IMG/VR virus record: IMGVR_UViG_3300022221_000021
Location: 1 to 28,742 of that record
Source of the DNA: a virus
Direction: 5' to 3' (one strand)
DNA: 28,742 nucleotides
Shown: positions 2,025 through 24,861 of the stretch, one piece after another
How the letters are laid out: the number at the start of each line of letters is the position of its first letter
How positions within the stretch are numbered: the stretch's first letter is position 1
The notes under the pieces: model-generated
What the model was told of the DNA's origin: nothing
Database searches by the model: none
The model's input: the letters and a program-made list of their open reading frames with translations, nothing else
Translations under genes and position numbers: made by a program

Positions 2025-2132
2025 CGGCTCACCCCTAGCGGTACGTGGATGACATTCTCCGGAGCGCCATTTCCCGCCCAATCAGCCGCCCCAAGGTGGA
2101 CCACTCACCCCTACCGCAAATAGATGTCATCT
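2025..2132 (+). promoter_or_regulatory. Largest rightward intergenic gap; repeated CTCACCCCTA element
   Basis: The gap separates the replication and packaging genes. CTCACCCCTA occurs at 2028-2037 and again at 2104-2113. Each copy is followed by a related stretch (GGATGACATTCT at 2047-2058 and AGATGTCATCTAT at 2122-2134), suggesting an imperfect duplication of about 30 nt. The second copy sits exactly 30 nt before the ATG at 2133. No convincing -10/-35 pair or terminator is seen. It is a plausible place for a module promoter or operator, but that is inference. Confidence 0.45.
2103..2113 (+). promoter_or_regulatory. -30 element, copy A (ACTCACCCCTA)
   Basis: The element ACTCACCCCTA starts 30 nt upstream of the ATG at 2133. 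It is one of four related elements at the same distance from a start codon; the others are at 4527, 6946 and 18372. No Shine-Dalgarno-like purine tract lies between it and the ATG. Confidence 0.5.
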
Positions 2133-2134
2133 AT
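2120..2134. promoter_or_regulatory. Perfect palindrome ATAGATG-T-CATCTAT overlapping a start codon
   Basis: Seven-base arms flank a single central base, and the right arm runs into the ATG at 2133. A degenerate half-matching copy (GGATGACATTCT) lies upstream at 2047-2058. Two-fold symmetry at a gene start suggests a repressor or activator site. No regulator gene is visible in the window to pair with it. Confidence 0.4.
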
Positions 2135-2648
2135 GCATCTGGAGCGGGTAGCTGACCTTCGGACCCTCGGTCGATACGCGGCGGGGATGGCGATGCGGCC
2201 GGATATCGCCGCACGCATCGAGTCCTACATCGAGGAGAGCGGCCTGGATGCGCTGAAGCGGGCCCGCCAGCAGGCGATCGACGCCCGGGGCGGAGAGGTC
2301 AGCGTGAACGATGCGGATCTCGAGGAGCCGACGCCGAAGGTGCTTCCCCTCCCCCTCGGTGCCGAGGTTGGGCGATGGCGCATCGTGCGCCGAGCTGCAC
2401 CGGAACCCATGGCCGGCCGCCGCGGGAAGCTGCGCCGCGTGGTCGTCGAATGCGTCTGCGGGGTCGAGAGCATCACCTTCGAACGGTACCTCAAGCTCGG
2501 ACGCACGCTCGGCTGCCCCAGCAAGAGCTGCCGCATCACATGGGAGCGGTCGCAGGGGATGCTTGAGCACTTGGGCCTCGACACCGTGCGCTCCATTTGC
2601 CGACGCGCCCGCGAAACCGGCATCTCCATCGACAGGATGATGCGATGA
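2133..2648 (+). CDS. Zinc-ribbon phage protein of unknown function
   Basis: The product is 171 residues from the ATG at 2133. An ATG at 2124 would add three residues; 2133 is preferred because it keeps the shared 30-nt spacing to the upstream element. The N-terminal 70 residues are helical and charged. Residues about 80-133 match a recurring phage zinc-ribbon pattern: G.EVGRWRIV, a basic stretch, then VVECVCG (C107, C109), then LKLGRTLGCPSKSC (C128, C133). The last 35 residues form helices (LDTVRSICRRA). It lies just before the terminase genes and overlaps terS by 4 bases. It may be a DNA-binding or packaging-associated regulator. The cysteines are seen directly; metal binding and role are inference. 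Confidence 0.7.
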   Translation: MHLERVADLRTLGRYAAGMAMRPDIAARIESYIEESGLDALKRARQQAIDARGGEVSVNDADLEEPTPKVLPLPLGAEVGRWRIVRRAAPEPMAGRRGKLRRVVVECVCGVESITFERYLKLGRTLGCPSKSCRITWERSQGMLEHLGLDTVRSICRRARETGISIDRMMR

Positions 2649-3100
2649 AGGGCCTAACCCACAAACAGCGGGCATTCGTGGAGGCCTACACCGGCGCGGC
2701 CGAGGGCAACGCGACCGAGGCCGCGGCGATGGCGGGATACAAAGGGAACCGCAGGACCCTCGAGGCGGTGGGACGCGAGAACCTCGGAAAACCTCGCGTA
2801 GCGTCAGCTATCGAGGAGATCAACGAGAGGCTCAGCAGCGCCCGGATCGCGACCGCCGAGGAGCGGCAGGCTTTCTACACGGCGATCCTCCGCGGCGAAG
2901 GGCTGGAACCGCACGTGACCCCGAAGGGTGACGTGGTCGATGCCGGGCCGACGTTCAAGGACCGACTAAAGGCTGGCGAGCTCCTCGGCAAGATGCAGGG
3001 CGACTTCATCGAGAAGGTAGACGTGCAGGTCACCGGAGCCGATGTGCGGTTCGTCTACCCCGACAACGGCCGGGTGCCTCCGCCACCGCCGAAGACATGA
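2645..3100 (+). CDS. terS: Terminase small subunit (TerS)
   Basis: This 151-residue protein begins MKGLTHKQRAFVEAY and continues NATEAAAMAGYKGN, RENLGKPRVASAIEE. That is the helix-turn-helix signature of the Terminase_2 type small subunits (LTxKQxxFVxxY, NATxAAxxAGY, NLxKPxVxxxI). The C-terminus ends in a proline run (RVPPPPPKT), a plausible flexible tail contacting the large subunit. The small subunit recognises the packaging site and regulates the large subunit. It overlaps terL by 4 bases (ATGA). The start at 2645 overlaps the zinc-ribbon stop and avoids a long N-terminal extension. This is not the Mu-type packaging arrangement, although the head genes downstream are Mu-like. Confidence 0.85.
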   Translation: MKGLTHKQRAFVEAYTGAAEGNATEAAAMAGYKGNRRTLEAVGRENLGKPRVASAIEEINERLSSARIATAEERQAFYTAILRGEGLEPHVTPKGDVVDAGPTFKDRLKAGELLGKMQGDFIEKVDVQVTGADVRFVYPDNGRVPPPPPKT

Positions 3101-4524
3101 ACGCGCCCCGCGAGGTCCGGGAGATCGGCCCGCAGCCTGGGCCCCAGACTGCTTTCCTCGCGAGCGAGGCGGACATCGCGTTCTACGGGGGAGCTGCCGG
3201 TGGCGGCAAGACCTGGGCGCTCGTATTCGACGCCGGGCGGGGCGCTCACCTGAATGGCTACGCCGCCGTCATCTTCAGGCGTACCAGCCCGCAGCTCACC
3301 GGCGGCGGATCGATCTGGGAGGAGGCGCAGGGGCTCTATCCCCTGCTCGGTGGGAGAGCCCGGGAACACCCGACGCTCGATTGGCATTTCCATTCGGGGG
3401 CGATGATCGAGTGCAGGCACCTGCAGCACGAAAAGAACAAGCTGGACCATCAGGGGAAGCAATACGGCTTCATCGGGTTCGATGAGGCTACCCACTTCAC
3501 CGAGTCGCAGTTCTGGTACCTCGTCAGCCGCAGCCGTTCGACGAGCGGCGTGCTCCCGTACATCCGCGCGACCTGCAACCCGGACCCGGACTCATTCGTT
3601 CGAGGCCTCATCGACTGGTGGATCGGCCAGGACGGCCTACCGATCCCGGACCGCTCCGGGGTGTTGCGATGGTTCGTCCGCGACGGCGACGACCTCCACT
3701 GGTTTCCGAGCAAGGACGAGGCCCTCGAGGAACACCCCGACGGCGACCCGATGTCGATCACCTTCATCGCCGCCAAGCTCGAAGACAACCCGGCGCTGCT
3801 CGAGAAGGATCCGACGTACCGGGCCAAGCTGCGGGCGCTCAACCGAATCGATCGTCAGCGCCTCGAGCTGGGCAACTGGGACGTCCGCGCGAGCGCCGGC
3901 GAGCTCTTCCAGCGGCACTGGTTCAAGCTGGTCGATGCGGTCGCCGATGTGCCGGGGCGCGTCGTGCGGACGGTCCGGTGTTGGGACAAGGCGGCGACCG
4001 AGCCCCATGCGGCGAACCCCGATCCGGACTGGACCGTCGGCGCCAAGCTCAGCGTGACGAGCCACGGCTTCTACGTGCTCGAGCACGTGGAGCGGCTCAG
4101 GAAACGGCCCGCCGGCGTCGACGATGCGATGCGCGCGATCGCCGAGCAGGACGGGCGAGGCGTCGAGGTCGGTATCTGGCAGGACCCCGGGCAGGCGGGC
4201 GTGGTCGACGTGGAGCACACGAAGGGCGTACTCCGCGGCTGGGCCGTGACCGAGCTTGTGGCGTCGCGAGACAAGACCGTCTGGGCCAAGGTCTGGAGCC
4301 CTCTCGCTGAACAAGGCCTCATCTACGTCGTGCGTGGCCGGTGGAACAACGTCGTGTTCGCCACGCTCGAGAACTTCCCTCCGGAGGACGGTGGCCACGA
4401 CGACGACGTCGACGCGATCTCCCTGGCCTTCCAGATGCTCTACGCGGGACTGGCCACGAAGGGCGCTCGTCGGCCCAACAAGGAGGGTCGCCCACGGGTG
4501 ACTCGAGGTGGGGCGCTCCTTTGA
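3097..4524 (+). CDS. terL: Terminase large subunit (TerL)
   Basis: The 475-residue DNA-packaging motor has an N-terminal ATPase and a C-terminal RNase H-like nuclease. Walker A is GAAGGGKT at residues 32-39. Walker B is IGFDEA with D129 and E130. A coupling-type segment ATCNPDPDSF lies near residue 155. The nuclease half starts around residue 290 with RCWDKA (D297), has a central IWQDPGQAG and ends with HDDDVDA (D435-D439), which supply the expected metal-binding acidic residues. The length is normal for the family. It acts at the portal, cutting concatemers and pumping DNA into the prohead. The gene is followed by a 32-base gap containing a -30 element and then the portal gene. Confidence 0.95.
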   Translation: MNAPREVREIGPQPGPQTAFLASEADIAFYGGAAGGGKTWALVFDAGRGAHLNGYAAVIFRRTSPQLTGGGSIWEEAQGLYPLLGGRAREHPTLDWHFHSGAMIECRHLQHEKNKLDHQGKQYGFIGFDEATHFTESQFWYLVSRSRSTSGVLPYIRATCNPDPDSFVRGLIDWWIGQDGLPIPDRSGVLRWFVRDGDDLHWFPSKDEALEEHPDGDPMSITFIAAKLEDNPALLEKDPTYRAKLRALNRIDRQRLELGNWDVRASAGELFQRHWFKLVDAVADVPGRVVRTVRCWDKAATEPHAANPDPDWTVGAKLSVTSHGFYVLEHVERLRKRPAGVDDAMRAIAEQDGRGVEVGIWQDPGQAGVVDVEHTKGVLRGWAVTELVASRDKTVWAKVWSPLAEQGLIYVVRGRWNNVVFATLENFPPEDGGHDDDVDAISLAFQMLYAGLATKGARRPNKEGRPRVTRGGALL

Positions 4525-4534
4525 GCACGCACCC
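4510..4534 (+). other. Bulged inverted repeat at the terL stop
   Basis: GGGGCGCTC (4510-4518) can pair with GAGC, GC and CCC in 4523-4534 around a CTTT loop, giving nine base pairs with two bulges. The 3' arm contains the ACGCACCCC element of the portal gene. There is no following T-run, so a terminator is unlikely. It could modulate access to the element or translation of the portal gene. Confidence 0.3.
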
Positions 4535-4537
4535 CAG
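4527..4537 (+). promoter_or_regulatory. -30 element, copy B (ACGCACCCCAG)
   Basis: ACGCACCCCAG begins 30 nt upstream of the portal gene ATG at 4557, inside the terL-portal gap. It shares ACGCACCCC with the copies before 6976 and 18402. The only purine tract before the ATG is a weak AGTAGG. Confidence 0.5.
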
Positions 4538-4556
4538 ACGAAAGTAGGTATCGACC

Positions 4557-6194
4557 ATGCCCAAGCCTGTGACGAGCAAGGACCTAGGCCGCGAGATCGC
4601 CGGCCCGACGATCACGGGGGTGCGATCCCCGTACCGCTCGAGCCAGGCCGCGGGCATCACTCCGGAGCGCCTCGGCGCCATCGTACGAGCAGCCGACGAC
4701 GGTGATGTCGAGGCCTATGTCACCCTGGCCGAGGAGATGGAGGAGAGGGACGGGCACTACGCCTCGGTGATCGAGTCCAGGAAGCTCGAGGTGTCCGGAG
4801 CGCCGTGGGATGTCGAGAGCGACGACGAGGGCCGTGCGAAGGAGGAGCATGTCCGCGCCGTTCGGGACGACATCCTGAAGGGTGACGGATTCGAGGGGCT
4901 GGTGAAGGACCTCCTCGACGCCACCGCGAAGGGGTACTCGATCTGCGAGATCATCTGGGACACGAAGGCGAAGCGCTGGCGACCAGACGAATACAAGTGG
5001 CGGACGCAGCGCTGGTTCATGTGGGACATCGAGACGCTCTCCGAGCTCCGCATCATCACCGAGAAGACGCCGCACGGGGAGTCGCTCCTGCCCCACAAAT
5101 ACGTGGTGCACACGAGCCACATTCGCAGCGGACCGTCGTTTCGTGCGGGACTCGGCCGCATCGCCTCGATCGCATTCATGGCCAAGAGCTTCACCGTCAA
5201 GGACTGGCTCGCCTTCGTCGAGGTGTACGGCATGCCGATTCGGATCGGAAAGTACCCGGAAGGCGCTCTCGACGACGATATCGACGCGCTCGAAAAGGCG
5301 GTCCACGACATCGGCACCGACGCAGGAGGCGTTATCCCGGCCAATATGGCGATCGAGCTCCTGCAGCCAGTCACGGGCAGCGGAAACGCCGCCGACCTTT
5401 TCCGCAACAAGGCCGACTGGTGGGACAAGCAGGTCAGCAAGGCAGTCCTGGGCCAAACGATGACCACTGACGAAGGCGCCAGCCTCTCCCAAAGCCAGAC
5501 GCACGCCGACACCCTCCGGAAGCGCGTGCAGGCGGACGCCCGGGCGGTAGCGCGCACGATCAACCGCTACGTGGTCCGGCCCTACATCGACCTGAACTTC
5601 GGTCCGCAGGAGTACTACCCGCGCCTCCGGGCGCAGATCGACGATCCCGAGGACCAGGAGGCGAAGAGTCGCACCGTCAAGGTGCTGGTCGACGCCGGGA
5701 TGCGGATCCCAGCCGCCTGGGCACGGAATGAGTTCGGTATCCCAGACCCCGAGGAGGACGAGGAGATCCTCGGTGGGTCGCCGCTCGACGAGAGCACCAC
5801 GCGCACCCCCGAGGAGGCGGAAGCCGCCCGCAAGGCCTTCGAGGATCGCATGAGCGGCAAGGACGGCGACGAAGGGGAGGAAGATGGAGACGAAGACGGC
5901 GATGAGACCGATGAGGACAATGGCGACAGCCCTGACCTCAACGCGAGCCGGGGAAACAAGAGCGTCATCGATCAGATCGTCGACGAGGCACTGGCCGACT
6001 GGGAGCCGGTCGCGAGCGACGTGGCCGCCGTGCTTGAGCTCGCGGCGAGGGCCACGAGCTTCGAGTCCTTGAAGGCCGAGCTCCGGCGGTTCGCCGACGG
6101 GAGCGAGGACCTCAACGAGAGCGATTTCGTTCGCCGCCTGGCCGTGGCCACCTTCAAGTCTCGAGGACTCGGCGACGCCACCGACGACCCATGA
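4557..6194 (+). CDS. Portal protein, Mu gp29 family (DUF935)
   Basis: The 545-residue portal starts MPKPVTSKDLGREIAGPTITG, the usual opening of Mu gp29-like proteins. Residues about 45-110 (TLAEEMEERDGHYASVIESRK, then SGAPWDVE) carry the DUF935 core. The middle has GKYPEGA and WWDKQVSKAVLGQT, then SLSQSQTHADTLRKRVQADA, typical of the wing/stem region. Residues about 425-455 are extremely acidic (DGDEGEEDGDEDGDE), a linker before a helical C-terminal domain (SVIDQIVDEAL, then FVRRLAVATF) found in the family. Twelve copies would form the unique-vertex DNA channel and dock TerL and the tail connector. It overlaps the next gene by 4 bases. Confidence 0.95.
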   Translation: MPKPVTSKDLGREIAGPTITGVRSPYRSSQAAGITPERLGAIVRAADDGDVEAYVTLAEEMEERDGHYASVIESRKLEVSGAPWDVESDDEGRAKEEHVRAVRDDILKGDGFEGLVKDLLDATAKGYSICEIIWDTKAKRWRPDEYKWRTQRWFMWDIETLSELRIITEKTPHGESLLPHKYVVHTSHIRSGPSFRAGLGRIASIAFMAKSFTVKDWLAFVEVYGMPIRIGKYPEGALDDDIDALEKAVHDIGTDAGGVIPANMAIELLQPVTGSGNAADLFRNKADWWDKQVSKAVLGQTMTTDEGASLSQSQTHADTLRKRVQADARAVARTINRYVVRPYIDLNFGPQEYYPRLRAQIDDPEDQEAKSRTVKVLVDAGMRIPAAWARNEFGIPDPEEDEEILGGSPLDESTTRTPEEAEAARKAFEDRMSGKDGDEGEEDGDEDGDETDEDNGDSPDLNASRGNKSVIDQIVDEALADWEPVASDVAAVLELAARATSFESLKAELRRFADGSEDLNESDFVRRLAVATFKSRGLGDATDDP

Positions 6195-6931
6195 CCGATC
6201 CCCGTGCGGCCCCCATCGAGGCGATCCGGTTCTTCCTCGCGAAGGGCATCCAGCCGGGGTTTGCCTACGACGACATCTTCGGCGAGGAGCACCTCCGCGC
6301 GTTCACCGCGGCAAAGTTCATGCGGGAGGACGTGCTCGAGCTCGTCCAGGAGTCGCTTGACGGCGCTCTCGAAGAAGGCCTCGACTATCGATCCTGGGTG
6401 GCCTTGCTCGAGCCTCGCCTCCAGGCCGCTGGGTTCTGGGGCGCGCAGCAGGTGACGGACCCGTTCTCGGGAGCTGTCGCGGATATCGACGTGCCCTCGC
6501 GCTTGCGTCTGATCTACGAGACCAACACGCGGACCGCGATGGCTGCCGGCCAATACGAGCGGGTGCAGAGGACGAAACGCAGCCATCCATACCTGCTCTA
6601 TCAGCTCGGCCCGAGCCGTGTCCACCGGCCGGAGCACGTGCGATGGGCGGGGCTCCTACTGCCCGTCGATGATCCCTTCTGGGCCACGCACTACCCGCCC
6701 AACGGCTACGGTTGCAAGTGCCACGTGCGCCAGGTGAGCCGGTATGAGTACGACGAACTCGTAGCTGCCGCGGAGAGCGGCGGGCCGCAGTCCGCGCGCA
6801 TCAAGACGGCAAGACCGCGAATCCGGCGTCGCAAATGGCGCAGCAAGCGCACCGGGGAGGAGTACCTGGTGCCCGTGGGGATCGACCCCGGATTCGACCA
6901 CCCTCCGAACCGCTCGCTGACGCGTCGGTAG
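6191..6931 (+). CDS. Head morphogenesis protein, Mu gp30 (F)/SPP1 gp7-like
   Basis: The 246-residue protein opens with IEAIRFFLAKGIQPGFAYDD, a segment shared by Mu F-like proteins. It contains RLRLIYETNTRTAMAAGQYE and ends its core with THYPPNGYGCKCHVRQVS (C175, C177), the diagnostic PPNGxGCxCxV motif of the SPP1 gp7/Mu F morphogenesis domain. A short basic tail follows (RIRRRKWRSKR). At 246 residues it is shorter than Mu gp30, so the C-terminal extension appears absent. Proteins of this family are minor head components bound to the portal. The stop at 6929-6931 is followed by a 44-nt gap with a -30 element. Confidence 0.9.
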   Translation: MTDPRAAPIEAIRFFLAKGIQPGFAYDDIFGEEHLRAFTAAKFMREDVLELVQESLDGALEEGLDYRSWVALLEPRLQAAGFWGAQQVTDPFSGAVADIDVPSRLRLIYETNTRTAMAAGQYERVQRTKRSHPYLLYQLGPSRVHRPEHVRWAGLLLPVDDPFWATHYPPNGYGCKCHVRQVSRYEYDELVAAAESGGPQSARIKTARPRIRRRKWRSKRTGEEYLVPVGIDPGFDHPPNRSLTRR

Positions 6932-6939
6932 CCCCGCAA

Positions 6940-6958
6940 TCGACGACGCACCCCCAGC
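6940..6958 (+). promoter_or_regulatory. -30 element, copy C (19-bp repeat identical to 18366-18384)
   Basis: TCGACGACGCACCCCCAGC is repeated exactly at 18366-18384. In both places the repeat ends 17 nt before a GTG start codon (6976 and 18402). Its core, ACGCACCCCC, begins 30 nt before the GTG, as in copies A and B. The only purine tract downstream, AAGGG at 6959-6963, is too far from the GTG for a strong Shine-Dalgarno. Confidence 0.6.
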
Positions 6959-6975
6959 AAGGGCACCACCATTGC

Positions 6976-7953
6976 GTGCACGACCTCATCGCACGCGGAA
7001 CCATTCTGTGTCAGCTGGCGCTGGCTGCCGAAGGCACCGTGCCAGAGTGGATTCACCTGCTCCCGGTGGGGCCCGAGATTCGCGGGCGCGACGGCCGAGC
7101 GTTCCGCCTTGAGGATGCGGCGGCGGTGATCGCCGAGACCGAGGCGCACCGGCTGAGCGCCGACGCCCTGTTCGCGATCGACTGGGAGCACGCCTCCGAG
7201 ATCAAAGCCGGCAAGGGCGAGAAGAGCCCCGCGGCCGGCTGGGTGCAGCGCCTCGAGGCGCGCGCCGACGGCATCTGGGCGCGCGTAGAGTGGACCGAGG
7301 TCGCGGCCAACGAGATCGCCGCCAAGCACTACCGATTTATGAGTCCTGCGTTCCGTGCGGAGCGCAAGAGCGGTCGCGTTCGCTCGTTCACCAGCGCGGC
7401 TCTCACCAACCGGCCGAACCTGGCCCTGACCCAGCTCAACTCCCGAGAGGACGGAAAAGCGATGAACGAGGAACAGATCAAGGCGCTTTGCGCTGCGCTC
7501 GGGATCGACCCCAGCGCAGACCCCGACGCCATCATCACGGCTGCGCAGGGCCGCCAAACGGTGCCCGTAATCGGCACGATGGTCCCGAAGGCCGACCTGG
7601 AGGTGGCGCTGCAGCGGGCCAAGTCCGCCGAGGACAAGCTGGCGACCATCGAGAAGGCGCAGCACACAGCCGAGGTCGACCGGGTCCTGAACAAGGCCAA
7701 GGACGATGGCAAGATCGCCCCCGCCAGCATGGAGCAGTATCGAGCCATGTGCTCGACGGCCGCCGGCTTCGAGCAGGTCAAGGCCCTCTTCGAGACGCTG
7801 CCGTCGATCCACGCTTCGCAAACCGCCGGCCTGAAGCAACCCAGCAAGGGGCTCGGCCTGACGGAAGAGCAGGTCGAACTCTGCAGGCAGATGGGGTGGG
7901 ACCAAGAGACCTACCTCCAAACGCTGCGTGACGAGGAAGGGGGTGCGCGATGA
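6976..7953 (+). CDS. Capsid protease/scaffold fusion, Mu gpI-like
   Basis: The product is 325 residues from GTG 6976. This start is chosen because it lies after the gp30 stop and at the shared 30-nt distance from the repeat; upstream starts would overlap gp30. The N-terminal half carries the Mu I protease pattern: PEWIHLLPVGPEIRGRDGR, then LFAIDWEHAS (candidate catalytic His), AAGWVQRLEARADGIWARVEWT and YRFMSPAFRAE (candidate catalytic Ser), then SAALTNRPNL. The C-terminal half is an alanine- and charge-rich helical scaffold (LEVALQRAKSAEDKLATIEKAQ). It would assemble inside the prohead and be processed before packaging. The domain order matches Mu I/Z. The catalytic residues were assigned by eye and are less certain than the family. 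Confidence 0.9.
   Translation: MHDLIARGTILCQLALAAEGTVPEWIHLLPVGPEIRGRDGRAFRLEDAAAVIAETEAHRLSADALFAIDWEHASEIKAGKGEKSPAAGWVQRLEARADGIWARVEWTEVAANEIAAKHYRFMSPAFRAERKSGRVRSFTSAALTNRPNLALTQLNSREDGKAMNEEQIKALCAALGIDPSADPDAIITAAQGRQTVPVIGTMVPKADLEVALQRAKSAEDKLATIEKAQHTAEVDRVLNKAKDDGKIAPASMEQYRAMCSTAAGFEQVKALFETLPSIHASQTAGLKQPSKGLGLTEEQVELCRQMGWDQETYLQTLRDEEGGAR
7462..7953 (+). CDS. Candidate nested scaffold gene, Mu Z-like (in-frame internal start in the protease gene)
   Basis: In phage Mu the scaffold Z is made from an internal start within I. Here an in-frame ATG at 7462 begins MNEEQIKALCAALGIDPSAD exactly where the protease domain ends and the helical scaffold begins. A purine-rich stretch (GAGAGGACGGAAAAG) lies just upstream. 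The product would be 163 residues. This arrangement supports separate scaffold synthesis but does not prove it; the same region is also made as part of the full-length fusion. Confidence 0.5.
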   Translation: MNEEQIKALCAALGIDPSADPDAIITAAQGRQTVPVIGTMVPKADLEVALQRAKSAEDKLATIEKAQHTAEVDRVLNKAKDDGKIAPASMEQYRAMCSTAAGFEQVKALFETLPSIHASQTAGLKQPSKGLGLTEEQVELCRQMGWDQETYLQTLRDEEGGAR

Positions 7954-8357
7954 CGGCGCTCACGGAAGACGGGAAGGTCTGGGAGCGGCAAGGCAGGCGG
8001 CGCACGATCGGAGCGGCCGCGGCCGTCACCATTTACGAGGGCGCCTTGCTCGTTCAGGCCGCCGGGTACGCGACCCCAGCAACCACCGCGGTTAGCCTCG
8101 TGGTCCTTGGAGTCGCGGAGTCGCGAGTCGACAACGCCGGCGGCGCGGCCGGCGACAAGACGGTCGAGGTCCTCTCGGGGATTTTCGGCTTCAAGAACAG
8201 CGCCGGCGCGGACGAGGTGCTGGCGTCGCACATCGGATCCGATTGCTACATCGTCGACGACCAGACGGTCTCCATCGTTGCCACCGGCAAATCGATCGCC
8301 GGCAAGGTCTGGGATGTGGACGCGGATTTCGTCTACGTCGCCGTGGGGAAGGTCTGA
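7950..8357 (+). CDS. Small head protein, probable decoration protein
   Basis: The product is 135 residues and lies between scaffold and major capsid, where phages usually place a decoration or stabilisation protein. The sequence is rich in Ala, Gly and Val with beta-type stretches (AAAVTIYEGALLVQAAGYATP, VSLVVLGVAESRVDNAGGAAGD, KVWDVDADFVYVAVGKV). This pattern resembles DUF2190-like decoration proteins. A strong GAGGAAGGGGG tract precedes the ATG, and the start overlaps the protease stop by 4 bases. The assignment rests on size, composition and position; I do not recognise a specific motif. Confidence 0.65.
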   Translation: MTALTEDGKVWERQGRRRTIGAAAAVTIYEGALLVQAAGYATPATTAVSLVVLGVAESRVDNAGGAAGDKTVEVLSGIFGFKNSAGADEVLASHIGSDCYIVDDQTVSIVATGKSIAGKVWDVDADFVYVAVGKV

Positions 8358-8360
8358 GTC

Positions 8361-9547: not shown

Positions 9548-9550
9548 CAC

Positions 9551-11167: not shown

Positions 11168-12651
11168 TGGTCGACTTCAACTCCATCCCGAACGGCATCC
11201 TCACGCCGGGCGCCTTCGTCGAAAACGATCCATCCGGCGCCGTCGAGGGAGACTCTGCGAAGCCGCAGCACGTGCTGGCCTTGGCTGTCGTCCCGACCGT
11301 GATCGACGGGACGGGATCGCACCTGGTCCCGACGCCGCTCACGTCGACGAGCCAAGTAATGGATGTCTTCGGCAAGAGCGAGCTCTCCGCTGTCATGTGC
11401 TCGTTCATGCGGAAGAACCCCCGCACGAAGATCTCCGGCGTTGCGATCGCCGAGGCGGGCGCCGGCACGGCTGCGACCGCGACGATCACGTTCACCGGCG
11501 CGGCCACCGAGGACTGGACGATCTACGTGCGGTTCAACGGCATGGAGTTCGCGGTCAAGATCAACTCCGGTGACGCGGTGGCGGACGCTGCGGCCGCCGT
11601 CGTGACCGCCTTCGACGCCGCGGCCGCCAAGTCCACGACGCCGTGGATGTGGCTCGCGACGGCAAATAGCGCCCTCGGAGTCGTGACGCTGACAGCCGTC
11701 TGGAAGGGCACGACCAGCAACGGCCTCAGCCTTGCGCTCAACGTGGACCCGAAGCAGCGAATGCCGGCGGGCCTCTCGGCCGTGGTCGCAGACTTCTCGG
11801 GCGGCGCTTCCGATCCGGACATAGCGACGGCCATCGCGGTCCTTGGAGGCACGCACTACACCCGGATCGTCAACTCGCTCAGCGACGCGGCGAACATGGG
11901 CAAGCTCGAGCTCGAGGCCGAGAGTCGTTGGGACGGTACCGACGACCGCGACGTCGGGATCTTTGTTGCTATTCAGGACACGCACGCGGCCACGATCACG
12001 TGGGCGGACACGCGGAACAGCCCCTATGTCGTCGCCATGGCGTCGGGCAAGAGTCCCACACCGCCTCAGGTTTGGGCCGCTCAGGCATGCGCCGCGGACG
12101 TGCTCGTGAGCAACATTCTCGTCGTGAAGCCGCGCTTCGGGCAGCTGCTCCCGGATTGTATCCTTCCGGCCAACCAGTTCACCCGTGACGAGCGGCAGCT
12201 CCTCCTCGAGGCCGGGATCGCGACCCACAAGAGCGACGCCGCGGGACGAGCGATCATCGAGTCGCTGGTCACCACCTACACGAAGGACCCGGCCACCGAC
12301 ACGCCCGACACGAGCTATCAGGACTGGTCGCTCGTCGACGCGCTTGGGTACCTCAACTGGTCGTGGCTGACTCGGGCCAGCCAGCGCTTCGCGGCCAAGA
12401 ACGCGGCCAACGACGGCACCAGGGTGGCCTCCGGGTCAAACGTCGTGACGCCGTCGACGCTCCGCGGCGAGCTGGTCGCCTGGGCCGGCGAAATGGAGGA
12501 GGCCGGCATCATCGAGGATGCAAAGGCCTACGCCGATTCGGTCATCACGGAGCGAGCCGCCGGTGACCCGTCGCGGATGAACATCCTCGACGAGCCCAAC
12601 ATCATCAACGAGCTCAAGGTCATCGCCAAGCGAACGGCCTTCAAGAGGTAG
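11167..12651 (+). CDS. Tail sheath protein, Mu gpL-like
   Basis: The 494-residue sheath opens with VDFNSIPNGILTPGAFVEND, the usual start of Mu L-like sheath proteins. It carries a GGASDPDIATAIAVLGGTHYTRIV segment of the middle domain. The C-terminal part (ILPANQFTRDERQLLLEAGIAT, LNWSWLTRASQRF, INELKVIAKR) matches the conserved contractile core. Presence of a sheath shows that the virion is a myovirus. A GGGGGTAGCTG tract precedes the ATG. The sheath polymerises around the tube and contracts to drive it through the envelope. Confidence 0.95.
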   Translation: MVDFNSIPNGILTPGAFVENDPSGAVEGDSAKPQHVLALAVVPTVIDGTGSHLVPTPLTSTSQVMDVFGKSELSAVMCSFMRKNPRTKISGVAIAEAGAGTAATATITFTGAATEDWTIYVRFNGMEFAVKINSGDAVADAAAAVVTAFDAAAAKSTTPWMWLATANSALGVVTLTAVWKGTTSNGLSLALNVDPKQRMPAGLSAVVADFSGGASDPDIATAIAVLGGTHYTRIVNSLSDAANMGKLELEAESRWDGTDDRDVGIFVAIQDTHAATITWADTRNSPYVVAMASGKSPTPPQVWAAQACAADVLVSNILVVKPRFGQLLPDCILPANQFTRDERQLLLEAGIATHKSDAAGRAIIESLVTTYTKDPATDTPDTSYQDWSLVDALGYLNWSWLTRASQRFAAKNAANDGTRVASGSNVVTPSTLRGELVAWAGEMEEAGIIEDAKAYADSVITERAAGDPSRMNILDEPNIINELKVIAKRTAFKR

Positions 12652-12654
12652 CCA

Positions 12655-13017
12655 ATGTCTGACGACGATGTAACCGGCCTGGTCGCAATCGTGATCAATA
12701 GCGAGGAGATCCCGGTCGCTCCAGGCGCCACGATCGCGATGGGCGGTCCGATTCGTGAGACCATCATGGAAGCCTCGGGGAAGCGACGCGAGCGGACGAC
12801 CGGTTTCGCCCCGGGGAAGATCTCCTGCTCGGCCTTCCATGGCCCGAAGACCGACCTCGGCTTCTTTCGCGACTTCAAAGGCGGCACCGTTCTGGCCAAG
12901 ACCGACACCGACCAGGTGTTCGTCTGCAAGAAGGCGAGCCAGATTGGCGAGGTCGAGAGCTCGGACGGGATGATCCCGCTCACCTTCGAAGGGCAGCCGC
13001 TCGAGCAAATCGCATGA
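12655..13017 (+). CDS. Tail tube protein, Mu gpM-like
   Basis: The product is 120 residues. The sequence has GLVAIVINSEEIPVAPGATI, GGPIRETIMEASGKRRERTTGF, KISCSAFHGPKTD and TDQVFVCKKASQIGEVESSDGMIPLTFEG, matching the small tube proteins of Mu-like phages in size and order. Hexamer rings stack to form the inner tube inside the sheath. An AAGAGGTAG tract lies just before the ATG, and the stop overlaps the chaperone gene by 4 bases. Confidence 0.9.
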   Translation: MSDDDVTGLVAIVINSEEIPVAPGATIAMGGPIRETIMEASGKRRERTTGFAPGKISCSAFHGPKTDLGFFRDFKGGTVLAKTDTDQVFVCKKASQIGEVESSDGMIPLTFEGQPLEQIA

Positions 13018-13616
13018 CGACCTTCTCCGACGAGCGCATTCAGAAGATTCTCGCCGGTCGCCGAGCGATCGGGCGGGTGCCGTTTCCAGGCCCCCTCGAC
13101 GAGGACGAGAGCATCACCGACGTGCCCATGGTCGGCCTGCGCCTGCTCTCTGAGGCTGACACTGACGCGGCCCGGATCGCGACGCAGTCCTATCTTCATC
13201 AGAAGCTCGATCGGAAGAACCTCGACGTTGTGAAGTTCATCGACGCCGATCCGGATGCGATGCAGCGGGAGTACCAACGTCAGGTGCTCGTCCGCGCGTG
13301 CGTCGATCCGGACTGCACGGACCACGACAACCCGACGCCGTTCTTCGCCGTCATCGAGCAGGTCCGAAAGCTCGACGTGCTCACCCTCGACCGCCTGTGG
13401 GATGCGTACGGAGCGTGGCAGGAGGAGGTCAACCCGCGCTTTTCGCTCACCGAGCAGCAGGTCCGGGAGCTCGATGGTGCCCTAAAAAAAGCGCTGGTCG
13501 ACCAGGCAACTTTCGCGCTTTTGGAGCGCGACACGCTGCTGAGCTTGCTGCGTATTATGGCTGCCCGGTCTCCGAGCTCACCTTCTGGCAGATCCACTAC
13601 TTCCGGCTCCTCTTGA
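13014..13616 (+). CDS. Tail assembly chaperone, zero-frame product (Mu gp41-like)
   Basis: The product is 200 residues, placed between the tube and tape-measure genes as tail assembly chaperones always are. The zero-frame product carries FIDADPDAMQREYQRQVLVRAC and VNPRFSLTEQQVRELDGALKKAL. After the A7 run at 13484-13490 the zero-frame reading becomes low-complexity (ARSPSSPSGRSTTSGSS), which looks like an unselected end. The -1 frame there encodes a conserved-looking tail instead. The chaperone binds the tape measure to guide tube polymerisation and is absent from the finished virion. Confidence 0.85.
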   Translation: MTTFSDERIQKILAGRRAIGRVPFPGPLDEDESITDVPMVGLRLLSEADTDAARIATQSYLHQKLDRKNLDVVKFIDADPDAMQREYQRQVLVRACVDPDCTDHDNPTPFFAVIEQVRKLDVLTLDRLWDAYGAWQEEVNPRFSLTEQQVRELDGALKKALVDQATFALLERDTLLSLLRIMAARSPSSPSGRSTTSGSS

Positions 13617-13630
13617 GCGATGGCCATTGA
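13014..13630 (+). CDS. Tail assembly chaperone, predicted -1 frameshifted product
   Basis: Read as 13014-13490 joined to 13490-13630, this gives about 205 residues. Ribosomes slipping back one base on A AAA AAA would continue SAGRPGNF, RHAAELAAYYGCPVSEL and TFWQIHYFRLLLSDGH. The last part resembles the aromatic-rich ends of frameshifted chaperone extensions. The extended product ends inside the start of the tape-measure gene. Many phages make a short and a long chaperone in fixed ratio by this mechanism. The slippery site is seen directly; use of it is inferred from family behaviour. Confidence 0.75.
13484..13490 (+). other. Programmed -1 frameshift slippery heptamer A AAA AAA
   Basis: The zero-frame codons are CTA AAA AAA GCG, so the heptamer has the X XXY YYZ phase needed for a -1 slip. 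Downstream lie a small palindrome (CTGGTCGACCAG, 13494-13505) and a 6-bp-stem hairpin (CGCGCT-TTTGG-AGCGCG, 13514-13530). The second hairpin is farther away than the usual spacer, so its contribution is uncertain. Confidence 0.75.
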
Positions 13631-15536
13631 GGGCGCGCTACGGATCACGCTGACCGGGGATCGCGCGGTCCGCCGAAAGCTCAAGGTTGTCGCAGGCGAC
13701 TTCGACAAGGCCGAGAAATCGAAGGTCCAGTCAGCCAAGCGAACGAAGACCGACCTCGAGCGTCTTGCGAAGAAGAGCGCCGCGGACGACCGCCGCGCGA
13801 ACCAGCGTCGAGTTCGAGAGTGGAAGAACGCTGAACGAGAGCGCCTTCGTGCGTCAAAGAGGCGCGCCAGCGAAGAGCTCAAGCTGCAGAAGAAGGCGGA
13901 GCGCGAGGAGTCGGCGTCTCTGCGTCGTCGCCAACAGAAGCGCCGGTCGATTCTCGGCGCTGTGGCCGGAGGCGCGGCCGGCGCGGCGTACGCCGGCATG
14001 GAGTACGCGCGTAGGTCTCAGGGGGTGCTTGGCGTGCAGACGAAGGAGCAGATCACGGCGCGCTCGCTGCAAACGCGCCGCGATCTGCTCCTCGCTGGGT
14101 CGGATGCCGGCATGAGCAAGGCCGAAATCGAGAAGATGATGAAGGACGCCTCCGCGGTCGCGAAGAAGCGTGGCGTGAGCGTCAACGATCTCCTCGCTGG
14201 AGCTCTCAAGGCCCAGGAGGACCACTCGGACATCAAGGGCTATGCGAGTCGGATGGACATCAACGCGCTCGCCATGCGGACGACGGGCGCGAGCGCCGCC
14301 GAGCTCGTGGGCGTCGAGGGGAACCTGAAGGACATCCTCGGATTGCAGGGGGAGGAGATCAAGAAGGGTCTCCTCATGGCGATCCAAAGCGGTACCGAGG
14401 GAGCCATCAACCTGCGGGACTTCGCCACGGAGATGCCGGAGGGATTCGGCCTGCACGCCGCAGCGTTCGGCGAGACCGGCCTCGACGCATTGCGTTCGTC
14501 GATGGCGATGAGCCAGCAGATCAAGAAAGGCACCGGCGTCAAGGCGGCTGAGGTCCAGACGATGCAGAAGGCGCTGACGATGGCCCTCGCCGACAAGGAC
14601 GTGCAGAAGCGGTTCAAGAAGGCCGGACTCGACGTGGTCGAGTGGGATGGCAGCGTGCTGGGCATCGCTGAGCTCGTGGAGGCGGCGAGCGGCAACGCGA
14701 AGCTCGGAGATATCGGGACGCTGAAGAAAATCATGGGCACCGACGAGGGGGCGATTGCGATGCAGGCGCTCCTCGGCCAGGAGCGGGCGGCCGGTCGCGG
14801 CGACGAGGGCGCGATGTCCCTCGCCGCCAGGCAGAAGATTGACAGCGACGCAGCGATGGGGCTCCTCGAGAAGAAGGAGAAGACGCTCGACGCGGACATC
14901 GTCGGCAAGGCGCAGCGCACGACCGCGACTCAAGAGTCGAAGATCTTCGATCAGACCGAACGTCTGACGCAGGCGATGCTCGATACCTCGGGTTGGCTGA
15001 CCGAGCTGGAGGCCGAGTTCCCGATCCTCACCGACGCGGTGAAGGGTCTCACGTCGGTAGTTGCAGGGGTATTCGGCGGCGGCTTTCTGAGTGGTCTATT
15101 CGGAGGCGGCGCGACAGCTACCGCTGGAGGTGGAGCTGCCGCAGCCGGAGGCGGGGGATTGCTAGCGACAATCGGGGCGATCGCTGCTCCCGTCACCGCG
15201 GCTGTGGGGGCAGGCGTGCTCTGGAACGAGGGCGAGAAGCACGGGAAGAAGGCGGACGACCTGGAAGCCGGGGTCGCGGGCAAACAGGCCGAGCGCTTTG
15301 GGCTCGCCACGCGTCGGATGAAGGGAGGTCTTCATGTCGACAAGGAGATGATGACGAGGGCCAAGCGTGCCGCCGAAGCTGAAGAGAGCGGGATGTTGAA
15401 GCGCGCCCTCGCTCAGGCCGGGAACGACCGCGGCCAGCGAGAGCTCATCGAGTCGATGCGCCAGCTCGCCGCGGCGTACCGTGAGCGCCAGCGGAACGTG
15501 GATGTGACCGCCGGACCGAACCGGGGTGCGTCGTGA
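13620..15536 (+). CDS. Tail tape measure protein
   Basis: The product is 638 residues. The N-terminal 110 residues are strongly basic and coiled-coil-like (RLRASKRRASEELKLQKKAER), followed by a Gly/Ala hydrophobic segment (LGAVAGGAAGAAYAGM). Helical repeats of the tape-measure type come next (VNDLLAGALKAQEDHSD, AELVGVEGNLKDILGLQGEE). Residues about 475-545 are Gly/Ala-rich and hydrophobic (GVFGGGFLSGLFGGGA, LLATIGAIAAPVTAAVGAG), a plausible membrane-active part. The C-terminus is a charged helix (RQLAAAYRERQRN). The protein sets tail length and may enter the host envelope. It overlaps gp43 by 4 bases. The family follows from position, size and composition. Confidence 0.9.
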   Translation: MAIEGALRITLTGDRAVRRKLKVVAGDFDKAEKSKVQSAKRTKTDLERLAKKSAADDRRANQRRVREWKNAERERLRASKRRASEELKLQKKAEREESASLRRRQQKRRSILGAVAGGAAGAAYAGMEYARRSQGVLGVQTKEQITARSLQTRRDLLLAGSDAGMSKAEIEKMMKDASAVAKKRGVSVNDLLAGALKAQEDHSDIKGYASRMDINALAMRTTGASAAELVGVEGNLKDILGLQGEEIKKGLLMAIQSGTEGAINLRDFATEMPEGFGLHAAAFGETGLDALRSSMAMSQQIKKGTGVKAAEVQTMQKALTMALADKDVQKRFKKAGLDVVEWDGSVLGIAELVEAASGNAKLGDIGTLKKIMGTDEGAIAMQALLGQERAAGRGDEGAMSLAARQKIDSDAAMGLLEKKEKTLDADIVGKAQRTTATQESKIFDQTERLTQAMLDTSGWLTELEAEFPILTDAVKGLTSVVAGVFGGGFLSGLFGGGATATAGGGAAAAGGGGLLATIGAIAAPVTAAVGAGVLWNEGEKHGKKADDLEAGVAGKQAERFGLATRRMKGGLHVDKEMMTRAKRAAEAEESGMLKRALAQAGNDRGQRELIESMRQLAAAYRERQRNVDVTAGPNRGAS

Positions 15537-16774
15537 GCTGGTTCGAGCGTTTGCAGCAGGCCTCGTTTCGTGGGGTCGAGTTCAGCGTGGAGGAGATCGG
15601 ATCGCGAGGTGGTCGACGGAAGCAGAAGGTCGCAATCCCCGATCAGGACGCCGAGGAGAAGGCGGTGCGCGTGCACAACCTCGGCATGGGGGAGAGAACC
15701 TTCTCGGTGACCGCCTTCCTGGCCGGAGACGACTACGACCTCGACCTGCAGCGCCTCGAGAACGCGCTCGACGAGCCCGGTCCTGGACTACTCGTCCACC
15801 CGTACCGCGGGACGCGTCTGGTCGAGATCGAGGACGGGTACGACGTCACGGAGAGCCGTTCGAGCGGTGGCTACGCTGCAATCACATTCGTGGCCGTCGT
15901 CGTCGGGGCCACCGACCAGGGAGGCCTCGTCGTCACCTCGGACCCGGTGTCGTCCGCCGGCGCGGCCGCGGACGTAGTGGCCGCGCCGGCGGTCGATGAC
16001 TTCGCGAACGACTTCTCGGTCGACGGGCTACCTGCGGCATTTCGTGAGTCGAGCGAGGGCGCATTCGCTGACGTGATGGAGGCGATCGAAACGGCCCGGT
16101 CGCAGCTCGGCGCGGCCCTCGACGCCTCAGATGAGATCGGTGGGCAGGTGCGCAAGTTCAACGCCGACCTATCGACGCTCCTCGACCAGCCGGCGGAATG
16201 CGCTGGGCAGCTCGTCGCCATCGTGCGGGGTGTACTGGATCCCCTGCTGCAGACGCGAGACACGGTGATCGGGGCTGGGTCCGAGCTGCTGCGCGCCGTC
16301 GATGTGATCTGGTCGTTCGCCGACGCCTACATCGACATTCCGTCGACTTCGACGAATCGGTCGGTGGAGGCCCAGAATCGCTCGGCCGTGGTGCGCAGCG
16401 TCCACGTGGCCGTGGTGGCCGAGGCCGCTCGAGTCGGCACCTCCATCGGGTACGACAGCAGACAATCGGCGCTAGCCGTCCGGGACGATATCGTTCGTCG
16501 AATCGATCTGATCGCGGACCACGACGACCCGGGCGACAAGGTATTCGTGATGCTGGACGAGCTTCGCGCGCAGGTCCACGATGCCCTCAGCGTTGCAGCA
16601 GCAGCGCTTCCGGAGCTCGGCACGTATACGCCGCGATTCGAGATGCCGGCGCTGCTCCTCGCACACCTCCTCTACGGGGACGCTCGCAGGGGCGATGAGA
16701 TCGTGGCCCGGAACAACCCCGAAAACCCGGGGCTACTCTCGACGAGTGACGATCTCGAGGTCCTGCGGTCATGA
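15533..16774 (+). CDS. Mu gp43-like tail/baseplate protein (DNA circularisation N-terminal domain)
   Basis: The 413-residue product starts at GTG, overlapping the tape-measure stop. The first 130 residues match the DNA_circ_N family: WFERLQQASFRGVEFSVEE, then KVAIPDQDAEEKAVRVHNLG, RTFSVTAFLAGDDYDLD and HPYRGTRLVEIEDGYDV. Despite the family name, in contractile-tail phages this domain belongs to a baseplate hub or tail-tip protein that binds the tape measure. The remainder is mostly helical (DLSTLLDQPAECAGQLVAIV). It overlaps gp44 by 4 bases and keeps the Mu gene order. Confidence 0.9.
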   Translation: MSWFERLQQASFRGVEFSVEEIGSRGGRRKQKVAIPDQDAEEKAVRVHNLGMGERTFSVTAFLAGDDYDLDLQRLENALDEPGPGLLVHPYRGTRLVEIEDGYDVTESRSSGGYAAITFVAVVVGATDQGGLVVTSDPVSSAGAAADVVAAPAVDDFANDFSVDGLPAAFRESSEGAFADVMEAIETARSQLGAALDASDEIGGQVRKFNADLSTLLDQPAECAGQLVAIVRGVLDPLLQTRDTVIGAGSELLRAVDVIWSFADAYIDIPSTSTNRSVEAQNRSAVVRSVHVAVVAEAARVGTSIGYDSRQSALAVRDDIVRRIDLIADHDDPGDKVFVMLDELRAQVHDALSVAAAALPELGTYTPRFEMPALLLAHLLYGDARRGDEIVARNNPENPGLLSTSDDLEVLRS

Positions 16775-17820
16775 CGATCCAGCACGATATGACCCTATCC
16801 GTCGGGGGCTCTCGGTATCGAGGGTTCACGCGCGGAGAGGTCCGGCTATCGATGGACCAGGCTGCGCCTACATTCGAGTGCGAGTACGTCGATAGCAAGC
16901 GGACCGGGGGAGCGCTTTGGACAATCGACGAGGGCGACGCCTGCGTCGTGTCCATCGATGGGGAGCCCGTAGTCTACGGGCACGCCGAGGACGTCGAGAC
17001 CGGGTATTCGGCGACCCATCGATCGGCTCGAGCGGCCGGCCGCGGGAAGCTCGGCGACATCGTGGACAGCTCGATCCTCGGCCGCTATCAGTTTCGCGGC
17101 AAGACGCTTGCCGACGTGGCGACGATCCTCACCAAGCCATTCGGGATTCGCGTCCGGTTCGATGGTAGCCCTGGGGCGCCGTTCCGAAGGTTCCGCTGTC
17201 AGCCCGGCGACAAGGTCTTCGAAGTGCTGGCCCGGGCCGCACGACTGCGGGGATTCGTCCCCATCGAGGTCGCTGGTGAGCTGGTCTTTACTCGAGCTGG
17301 ATCGAGACGAGTCCGCACCGTGCTCCGCCGAGGAGAAAACGTCGTCAGCTCGACCCGGAGCGGCACCCATCGCAATCGGTACTCGGAATACCATTTCCGC
17401 GGTCAGACCCAGGCGAGCGACGAGCTCAGCGGCAAGAGCGCCACCGAGCTCAGCGGGGAGGTGACGGACCCGCAGATCAAACGGCACCGCCCACTTCTTG
17501 TCACTGCGAGCGGGTCCGAGGGGAACCGGGACCTTGGAAAGGCGGCCGTGCTCGAACGCAACCGTCGCGCCGGCGAAAGCGAGCGGGTATCGTGCGTCGT
17601 CGAGGGGTGGCGAGACGACGACGGAGCCCTCTGGGAGCAGAACACACTGGTTCCCGTCGAAGACGACTGGGTCCGCGTCCACGGCACGCTGATCGTGGTA
17701 GATGTGGCCTACACGTTCGGCCCGAACGAACCCTACCTGACCCGCCTCGAGCTCACGCGACCGGAGGCCTACGACGAGATCGGGTACCCGACCCGAGGAA
17801 GGGGTGGCGTATGGAACTAG
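16771..17820 (+). CDS. Baseplate hub protein, Mu gp44 (gpP)-like
   Basis: This 349-residue protein has the gpP/gp27-like hub pattern: an N-terminal beta-barrel (MTLSVGGSRYRGFTRGEVRLSM), then DGEPVVYGHAEDVETGY, FRGKTLADVATILTKPFGI, CQPGDKVFEVLARAARLRGF, and a C-terminal ELVFTRAGSRR barrel. It also has PLLVTASGSEGNRDLGKAA and ERVSCVVEGWRDDDGALWE, common in Mu P homologues. Trimers form the centre of the baseplate to which the spike attaches. It overlaps gp45 by 10 bases. Confidence 0.9.
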   Translation: MTIQHDMTLSVGGSRYRGFTRGEVRLSMDQAAPTFECEYVDSKRTGGALWTIDEGDACVVSIDGEPVVYGHAEDVETGYSATHRSARAAGRGKLGDIVDSSILGRYQFRGKTLADVATILTKPFGIRVRFDGSPGAPFRRFRCQPGDKVFEVLARAARLRGFVPIEVAGELVFTRAGSRRVRTVLRRGENVVSSTRSGTHRNRYSEYHFRGQTQASDELSGKSATELSGEVTDPQIKRHRPLLVTASGSEGNRDLGKAAVLERNRRAGESERVSCVVEGWRDDDGALWEQNTLVPVEDDWVRVHGTLIVVDVAYTFGPNEPYLTRLELTRPEAYDEIGYPTRGRGGVWN

Positions 17821-18365
17821 GGGCCTTCGAGCGGTTGATCGCGCCCATTCTGAACGAGGTGCGCGGCGCAATCCGCAAGGCGATTCTCGGCCGAGTGGAT
17901 GACTCGACCGGAGTGCAGACCGTGCAAATGTCCCGAACGAAGGGCGACGACGCCGACCTTGTCGAGCACCTGCAGCCCTACGGCATGTCGTTCCGTCCAC
18001 CGGAGGGAAGCGAGGGCGTCGCCCTCGAGATCGGAGGCGACGCCAATCACCTCGTGCTTCTATGCGTGGCACCGCGCAAGGAACGCCCGAGGGACGTGGC
18101 CGCCGGCGAGGGGGGCCTGTGGCATCACAAGCACGGGTGGCGCGTGTTCCTCGACGACGCCGGCGACGTGCATCTCGCGGCGCAGACGGGAGCGTCCAAG
18201 CTGGCCCGGGCTGATCGGGTGGACGCTGAGATTCAGCGGATCTGGGATGTCCTCACTGGTTGGACGCCCGTCCTTCACGACGGGGGCTTAGCGTTGAAGG
18301 GGACGGCGACCACAGCGTCGGCCGGGAAGCAATCCACGGCGGCCGACAAGGTCCACGGCACCTAG
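17811..18365 (+). CDS. Baseplate spike protein, Mu gp45 (gpV-like)
   Basis: The product is 184 residues from ATG 17811, preceded by GAGGAAGGGG. The N-terminal part holds the OB-fold region (AIRKAILGRVDD, TVQMSRTKGDDADLVEHLQPYG, EGVALEIGGDANHLVLLCV), followed by a short beta-helix-like stretch (WRVFLDDAGDVHLAAQTG). The size is close to Mu gp45, the short membrane-piercing spike. No clear metal-binding HxH tip motif can be placed with confidence. A 36-nt gap follows, with the 19-bp repeat beginning directly after the stop codon. Confidence 0.9.
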   Translation: MELGAFERLIAPILNEVRGAIRKAILGRVDDSTGVQTVQMSRTKGDDADLVEHLQPYGMSFRPPEGSEGVALEIGGDANHLVLLCVAPRKERPRDVAAGEGGLWHHKHGWRVFLDDAGDVHLAAQTGASKLARADRVDAEIQRIWDVLTGWTPVLHDGGLALKGTATTASAGKQSTAADKVHGT

Positions 18366-18384
18366 TCGACGACGCACCCCCAGC
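18366..18384 (+). promoter_or_regulatory. -30 element, copy D (19-bp repeat identical to 6940-6958)
   Basis: This exact copy of TCGACGACGCACCCCCAGC starts immediately after the gp45 stop. Its ACGCACCCCC core lies 30 nt before GTG 18402. It can pair with the start region of the next gene: GACGAC-GCACCCC (18369-18381 region) with GGGGTGC-TC-GTCGTC (18399-18413), apart from a 2-nt bulge. That would bury the GTG in a hairpin. Confidence 0.6.
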
Positions 18385-18401
18385 GCGAGCATTCCGAAGG
18401 G

Positions 18402-18854
18402 GTGCTCGTCGTCGCCTACGACAACGCCACCGGTGACGGTGACTTGGTCCGCCAGGAGGGCCACCTCCTAGCCGGCGCAGGCATCGAGACCTTGGTCCAG
18501 AACAGCCTGTGCCTCGACGCGCCGGCCCACCCCGGGGACCCCGTCCCAGACGACATCGCCCGAAGTGGCTACTGGGCCGACGCGCTAGATGGCGAGGTCA
18601 CCGGGTCGCGCCTCTGGATCCTGCAGTACATGGCAGCCAACGAGGCGGCCCGGCTGTTTGCGATCGACGCGGCCGCGGAGGCCCTCGCCTGGATGATGCG
18701 AGCGCCGTACTTTCTGGCGAAGTCGGTCGAGGTATCGGCGCGGTACACGCCTGGTGGGACGATCGCGGTCTACCCGTCGATCACGAAACCGAGCGAGCTC
18801 GCGCCGTCGGTCGTCGGCGTCTGGGATTTCGAGGTGGGAAGTGCCCTTTACTAG
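18402..18854 (+). CDS. Baseplate wedge protein, Mu gp46-like
   Basis: The product is 150 residues from GTG 18402. The sequence contains NATGDGDLVRQEGHLLAGAG, the typical D-x-x-GDL opening of gp46/W-like proteins. SGYWADALDGEVTGSRLWIL at about residues 55-73 is the GWWxD..GSRLWxL signature of the Mu gp46 family. The family is related to T4 gp25 and forms part of the baseplate wedge. The GAAGGG in front of the GTG is nearly adjacent to it, a poor spacing for a Shine-Dalgarno; the upstream repeat may compensate. It overlaps baseplate J by 14 bases. Confidence 0.9.
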   Translation: MLVVAYDNATGDGDLVRQEGHLLAGAGIETLVQNSLCLDAPAHPGDPVPDDIARSGYWADALDGEVTGSRLWILQYMAANEAARLFAIDAAAEALAWMMRAPYFLAKSVEVSARYTPGGTIAVYPSITKPSELAPSVVGVWDFEVGSALY

Positions 18855-24733: not shown

Positions 24734-24861
24734 CTGTGGCGAACGCTCTATACGCCAGTGGCCGCGAAGGGTTTCTGGACGGATCGATCAACTGGGAAAC
24801 CGGGGACATTCGCGCGGCGCTGATTGACACAGGGGTCTACACGGTGAACCTCGCGACGCAC
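24425..24861 (+). repeat. Direct repeats from tandem gene duplication
   Basis: A 36-bp exact match links 24425-24460 with 24826-24861. A second near-exact match covers TTTCTGGACGGATCGATC near 24370 and 24773, and a third covers the segment encoding SRLIAYIDTATGLP near 24631 and 25025. The offset is about 400 bases, the length of one gene. Confidence 0.9.

Follow-up and report, generated by a model that had tools for sequence, protein, structure and literature searches.

Predicted leaderless late promoters with lineage-specific boxes in a Mu-like virus fragment

Four repeated elements in the window

What is the role of a short sequence that recurs, at one fixed distance, ahead of the genes that open the modules of a phage? 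The window, by which we mean the whole stretch of DNA that was analysed, is a virus fragment from IMG/VR, 28,742 bases long and with 66% G+C. It carries AC(G/T)CACCCC exactly 30 nt ahead of four module-opening start codons, once as ACTCACCCC and three times as ACGCACCCC (Table 1). The original prediction, made from the letters of the window, had placed the four elements at these positions and had described an exact 19-bp repeat at the last two of them. Both observations were confirmed, the repeat being TCGACGACGCACCCCCAGC, which begins at 6940 and 18366 and belongs to promoters 3 and 4. As judged from the ORF table, the genes behind the four elements are those on the plus strand with a preceding gap of at least 30 nt, which agrees with the earlier statement that no other rightward genes follow such a gap. 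The modules had been named as packaging, head, protease/capsid and baseplate, and Pfam and PHROG matches identify TerS and TerL, the portal, protease I and GP46, respectively, in these blocks.

Table 1. Predicted promoters, the extra box copy and the genes that they adjoin in the window.
Feature	Position	Strand	Details
Leaderless promoter 1 (predicted)	2097..2132	+	-35-like TGGACC 2097-2102; box ACTCACCCC 2103-2111; -10 TAGATG 2121-2126; predicted +1 = ATG 2133
Leaderless promoter 2 (predicted)	4521..4556	+	-35-like TTGAGC 4521-4526; box ACGCACCCC 4527-4535; -10 TAGGTA 4545-4550; predicted +1 = ATG 4557
Leaderless promoter 3 (predicted)	6940..6975	+	-35-like TCGACG 6940-6945; box ACGCACCCC 6946-6954; -10 CACCAC 6964-6969; predicted +1 = GTG 6976
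Leaderless promoter 4 (predicted)	18366..18401	+	-35-like TCGACG 18366-18371; box ACGCACCCC 18372-18380; -10 CATTCC 18390-18395; predicted +1 = GTG 18402
Extra CTCACCCCTA copy	2028..2037	+	directly after stop 2022-2024
Cys-rich, zinc-finger-like protein	2133..2648	+	CxCG...GC..C; first gene after promoter 1
Small terminase subunit (TerS)	2645..3100	+	PF03592, phrog_51
Large terminase subunit (TerL)	3097..4524	+	phrog_979, PF03237
Mu-type portal	4557..6194	+	PF06074; first gene after promoter 2
Mu-type head maturation protease (I)	6976..7953	+	PF10123, phrog_328; first gene after promoter 3
Baseplate protein GP46	18402..18854	+	PF07409, phrog_180; first gene after promoter 4

Both strands of the window together contain ACKCACCCC five times, against 0.78 expected, and the fifth copy is on the minus strand within a gene. 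A position matrix of 16 columns (-36 to -21), built from the four sites, gives them 22-24 bits, and the runner-up place in the window reaches 13.8 bits with no start codon at +30. When each site is left out of the matrix in turn, the four rank 4, 5, 4 and 3, in order, among 57,454 places. Eight of the nine box columns are invariant at the fixed offset, a value reached by none of 20,000 shuffles. The claim that these starts lack a good Shine-Dalgarno (SD) sequence was also upheld: anti-SD pairing amounts to -0.4, -6.4, -4.0 and -2.2 kcal/mol at sites 1 to 4, against values of -7 to -15 kcal/mol for many other window genes.

At site 1, an alternative in-frame ATG is located at 2124, inside the putative -10 hexamer, and ATG 2133 is for this reason the better start. 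The extra copy of CTCACCCCTA, which the original prediction had missed, precedes its counterpart in promoter 1 (2104-2113) by 76 bp. It has no A at the -11 position, no gene at +30 and no promoter geometry, and it is perhaps an additional activator site. At site 4 (18368-18413), the box GACGACGCACCCC is able to pair with GGGGTGCTCGTCGTC, which includes the GTG start codon; this pairing is seen at site 4 only and is perhaps due to chance.

Three further observations concern other genes of the window. The replication-initiation gene (293-1321) harbors clustered TCACGC/GCGTGAC repeats at about 660-775, and similar repeats, GTCACGC...GCGTGAC, are found in the homologous gene of a related record (L334:2381-2428); both sets look like origin iterons. 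Near the tail end, an adjacent gene pair (24338-25125) shares a 146-nt stretch that is 76% identical, a tandem gene duplication. Finally, one tail-region gene contains degenerate repeats of ~60 nt (25660-26227).

Boxes, spacing and protease starts in related cassettes

In related Mu-like morphogenesis cassettes, the equivalent places are occupied by a repeated element that differs from lineage to lineage. The closest full relative, L095, comes from a Myxococcales MAG and has a portal 43% identical to that of the window. In this relative GACGACTCAGCCTAGA precedes the portal, protease and GP46 genes. The core of this element, GACTCAGCCTAG, has just three copies in the 4.1-Mb genome, one at each of those sites. 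G182, which belongs to the same class as the host of L095, carries a 25-bp perfect dyad, CGCGTGGAGTAGCTGACTCCACGCG, before the portal, the protease and a small tail-region ORF, with 22 bp retained at the portal; the dyad core is present three times in 9.3 Mb, and a tolerance of two mismatches adds no further copy. The same dyad is repeated before the portal and protease of L333, whose portal is 93% identical to that of G182. Two prophages of G109 have AATCACTCCGGAT before the portal, the protease and a tail-region gene, and the third site of both G109 and G182 precedes a gene other than GP46 of the window. L261 bears TTGTAACGATGTGG exactly 32 nt before both the portal and the protease starts, L334/G593 bears TGGGCGCAGC-N3-GCTGCGCCCA 21 nt before the portal and 22 nt before the protease, and L338 has a single dyad, CGGCCCGT-AGACA-ACGGGCCG, 22 nt before the protease. 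No universal sequence appears to be common to these lineages. The box is near-identical within a phage and different between phages, which points to a phage-specific recognition factor. Exact searches of viral contigs returned 11 matches to the 16-mer of the window, all in unrelated contexts, and 3 matches to the L095 15-mer, likewise in unrelated contexts.

We compared the upstream regions of portal and protease genes for repeated elements in 139, then in about 280 Mu-like loci. GC3-based gene calling missed sites, and direct tests were used instead. Box lineages score 14-22 in this comparison, and 1,000 cross-locus pairs never exceeded 13. The portal/protease pair of the window scores only 9, and its case rests on the four-site pattern. 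The score of L042 was an artefact, one region having been compared with itself, and the main scores of 10-13 look like chance on inspection. Only seven related records carry boxes, and a FastTree portal tree does not group the box-carrying lineages in one clade. Many distant relatives have the same portal gene with no element and an ordinary SD sequence (44% strong SD), a situation that the original prediction had regarded as counting against the element. These portals do not refute it, as the nearest lineages have versions of their own.

Two of the prophages, G109 C2 and G182 C37, seem to be of the integrase type with CI/Cro-like repressors and not of the transposable type, as far as the translations show by eye; they look like a Mu-like virion cassette in a lambda-like frame. 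A Myxococcota-phylum locus, L260, repeats a 17-bp near-palindrome, AGTGCAATCGATTGCAC (oriented 484 and 9691), a possible operator.

The sites of the window and its relatives were aligned on the box, dyads by their centre, and L261 was excluded from the statistics because its register was fitted rather than predicted. An A is located 19 nt downstream of the box (box+19, which is -11) at 13 of the 16 sites, and at 13 of 13 without G109. This is the sole outstanding column outside the box (binomial 4.5e-7 before correction; 0/20,000 shuffles). Enriched positions ahead of the box are T at -6 (14/18), G at -4 (14/18) and A at -3 (11/18). The combined pattern reads TNGACN - 18 bp - NANNNN, with TNGACN at -36..-31 and a predicted +1 at box+30. 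This +1 coincides with the start codon in 8/16 sites and is one base off in 5/16; the start codon lies below it by 4 nt at L095 GP46, 4 nt at the G109 protease and 20 nt at the G182 portal. In its fitted register, L261 agrees with the scheme at offset 1, with CANNNT at both sites. The -10 hexamers are weak and often share A(-11) alone, and G109 has no A in register. Their first two bases (-12/-11) are mostly CA or GA, and the strict TANNNT form is found in part. As far as can be read from these alignments, the geometry of the boxes fits a sigma70 promoter with +1 at or beside the start codon.

Anti-SD pairing is weak at 17 of the 18 sites of the window and its relatives. As a discriminator, a weak SD is valid for portals and fails for proteases, since other Mu-like proteases also have none. 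An RNA hairpin was rejected as a common feature, being present in the dyad lineages only (G182, L333, L334 and L338). In the host G109, a 400-kb stretch of chromosome shows a maximum of TANNNT at -12 ahead of candidate start codons, with 10 cases against 0.8 expected.

Protease and portal starts in other Mu-like loci served as a control. ANNNT is found in 69 of 150 non-redundant protease genes; its A falls at -11 in 49 of them and at -12 in the other 20, and most other positions give about 5 (0/2,000 shuffles). Portals of the same set have it at -11 in only 3 cases and show a G-rich SD instead. Where the upstream word TCAGG/TCGGG is present among the 69 proteases, it is at -41 (13 cases), and GC-rich inverted arms with at least 5/6 pairs surround the hexamer in 18/69. 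In L034, L043, L127, L271 and L352, inverted arms flank the hexamer directly before the protease ATG and covary between phages; such arms could be an operator, in DNA or RNA. Among cultured phages, B23 and RC1 have the signal at their annotated protease starts. The protease start annotated for MP38 is 126 nt downstream of an in-frame ATG that bears the leaderless signal, at position 19,114 of NC_011611, and the signal suggests an earlier protease start in this cultured Pseudomonas phage. A comparable ATG follows CACCAT GGCGGC in the D3112 record, where it lies in a different frame (L452:283 and L451:7794 for this pair of phages). Mu and Shewanella phage MuM16-2 do not show the protease signal. 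A leaderless promoter of the P_I type before the protease appears to be common in Mu-like phages, and the relatives of the window appear to have the leaderless arrangement at several late blocks.

A promoter model and its rivals

Directly observed in the sequences are the repeats and where they lie, the constant spacing with A(-11), the weak SD and the lineage-specific boxes at equivalent boundaries. Each of the four elements is probably the upstream half of a late promoter that yields leaderless mRNA and carries an activator box specific to the phage. The -35 region of such a promoter would combine a degenerate TNGAC with the phage-specific box (AC(G/T)CACCCC in the window), together covering about -36 to -21, and an 18-bp spacer from the -35 hexamer would lead to a very degenerate -10 of the sigma70 type (TA or CA at -12/-11 in the window). 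A phage-encoded activator would bind the box over the -35 and spacer, and would recruit or activate host RNA polymerase, with the primary sigma factor, at these weak promoters. Transcription would begin at the first base (A or G) of the start codon; the mRNA of the first gene of each late block would then have no leader and would be translated without a Shine-Dalgarno sequence. The packaging, portal, protease/capsid and baseplate blocks would probably be switched on together, as C does at Mu P_lys, P_I and P_P. From sequence patterns we infer that transcription starts at the start codon, that there is an activator and that the timing is late.

The original prediction had offered three readings, a promoter giving leaderless transcripts, a translation signal and a boundary used for module exchange. 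The promoter reading gained support, since A(-11) lies at sigma70 spacing from TNGAC and puts +1 at or beside the start codon, a geometry that recurs before the protease of many other Mu-like phages. The elements might also belong to late promoters with ordinary SD-less leaders of ~30 nt, the box being the -10/start region or an activator site, but we consider this unlikely. The G109 sequence before the box (TGTAAT, TTGAAT) is -10-like and would place +1 near the box, whereas no AT-rich -10 lies ahead of the box in the window, L095, L334 or L338, and ordinary leaders leave the fixed-spacing A(-11) and the tight start-codon distance unexplained. Slightly less probable again is a post-transcriptional operator, with the box as an RNA site through which a phage protein regulates how the opening gene of each block is translated. 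It would account for the fixed start-codon distance with a weak SD, the perfect dyads of G182, L333, L334 and L338 could form RNA hairpins, and inverted arms surround the hexamer at some other Mu-like proteases; an RNA operator is possible above all for this flanking-arm form in other phages. In the window, L095, G109 and L261, however, the box shows no hairpin, and the conserved geometry fits a DNA promoter. These elements are moreover wholly different between relatives and an Rfam search of the window gave no match, which also argues against a translation signal as such. Module exchange, with boundary sequences used for it or left by it, is very improbable. The sites do lie at module joints, and the third site of G109 and G182 is before a different gene; yet relatives share positions and not sequence, which therefore could not guide exchange between them, the copies in L095 and G182 are confined to their own prophage, and promoter geometry is conserved.

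We performed a search for the activator that the leaderless promoters would need. Neither a Mor/C activator (PF08765) nor an Ogr/Delta zinc-finger activator (PF04606) was found in the seven genomes or records (0/7 for each); as the window, L261, L338 and L334 are fragments, the absence of Mor/C is firmest for the G109 and G182 prophages. The Cys-rich protein encoded after promoter 1 has no Pfam or PHROG match, and a fold comparison with its predicted structure (pLDDT 81) returned nothing similar. Homologues occur in the window, L095, G182, L333, L334/G593 (with two domains) and L384, and were not found in G109 or in the fragments L261 and L338. L384 has the protein, yet no box before the portal. 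This protein is a tentative and rather doubtful candidate for the late activator. The scales are evenly balanced for a wider reading, taken jointly, in which about half of the sampled Mu-like family would start the protease mRNA on the start codon, a set of lineages related to the phage of the window, with known hosts in Myxococcota, would be leaderless at the portal, packaging and baseplate blocks too, and a fast-evolving activator, perhaps the Cys-rich protein, would have its DNA box rewritten in every lineage.

Among phages, leaderless mRNAs have been described mainly for repressor genes, lambda cI being one. The first leaderless case is credited to lambda (PMC3160421). If the promoters act as predicted, the most heavily expressed phage genes, those of the structural late operons, would use an SD-independent route, and virion proteins would be translated from leaderless mRNAs. 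The signal would help in locating late operons and assigning start codons in uncultured phages, and the lineage-differing boxes would form a natural series for the coevolution of regulator and site. A literature search that covered few subscription papers gave no description of coordinated leaderless late operons, which is weak evidence of novelty.

Comparison with known systems

The Mu late promoters P_lys, P_I, P_P and P_mom are activated by C (PMC4461284). Like them, the predicted promoters form a set of several weak sigma70-type promoters with non-consensus -10 and -35 (PMC4461284). They lie before protease I and the tail/baseplate block (6946 and 18372; also in L095), with near-equivalent tail sites in G109 and G182, and they have an activator site in common, here the putative box. 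Unlike in Mu, no Mor/C homologue was found (0/7). The box overlaps the -35 and spacer, at about -36 to -21, and the dyad boxes span about -45 to -21, whereas the Mu C site is upstream of -35. The predicted promoters also precede the portal and, in the window, the packaging block, and they would be leaderless, whereas Mu gene I has no ANNNT at -11. The elements thus appear to work like Mu late promoters while not being members of the Mu C-dependent class.

The elements also differ from late activation of the P2 Ogr/Delta type, with PF04606 in 0/7 and no Pfam match for the Cys-rich candidate, and from structured RNA translation elements, with no Rfam match and no fold common to all lineages. Lambda cII and T4 MotA are phage activators that act at or near -35. 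Their promoters are similar in that a short box at about -30 to -35 replaces a good -35 and is combined with a sigma70 -10; here, by contrast, the boxes vary between lineages, some are perfect dyads, and the transcripts are predicted to be leaderless. The lambda cI mRNA from P_RM is a leaderless phage mRNA of a single repressor gene, as opposed to the set of structural late operons proposed here.

For Zheng et al. (2011, PMC3160421), TANNNT at about -12 marks leaderless genes, and their survey reports such genes in 8 of 33 delta-proteobacterial genomes. As in those genes, a degenerate -10 hexamer would put +1 on the start codon and the SD is weak. The hexamer here mostly has CA or GA, not TA, at -12/-11 and, unlike the leaderless genes of that survey (PMC3160421), the predicted promoters would serve a set of phage late operons with a common and specific upstream box.
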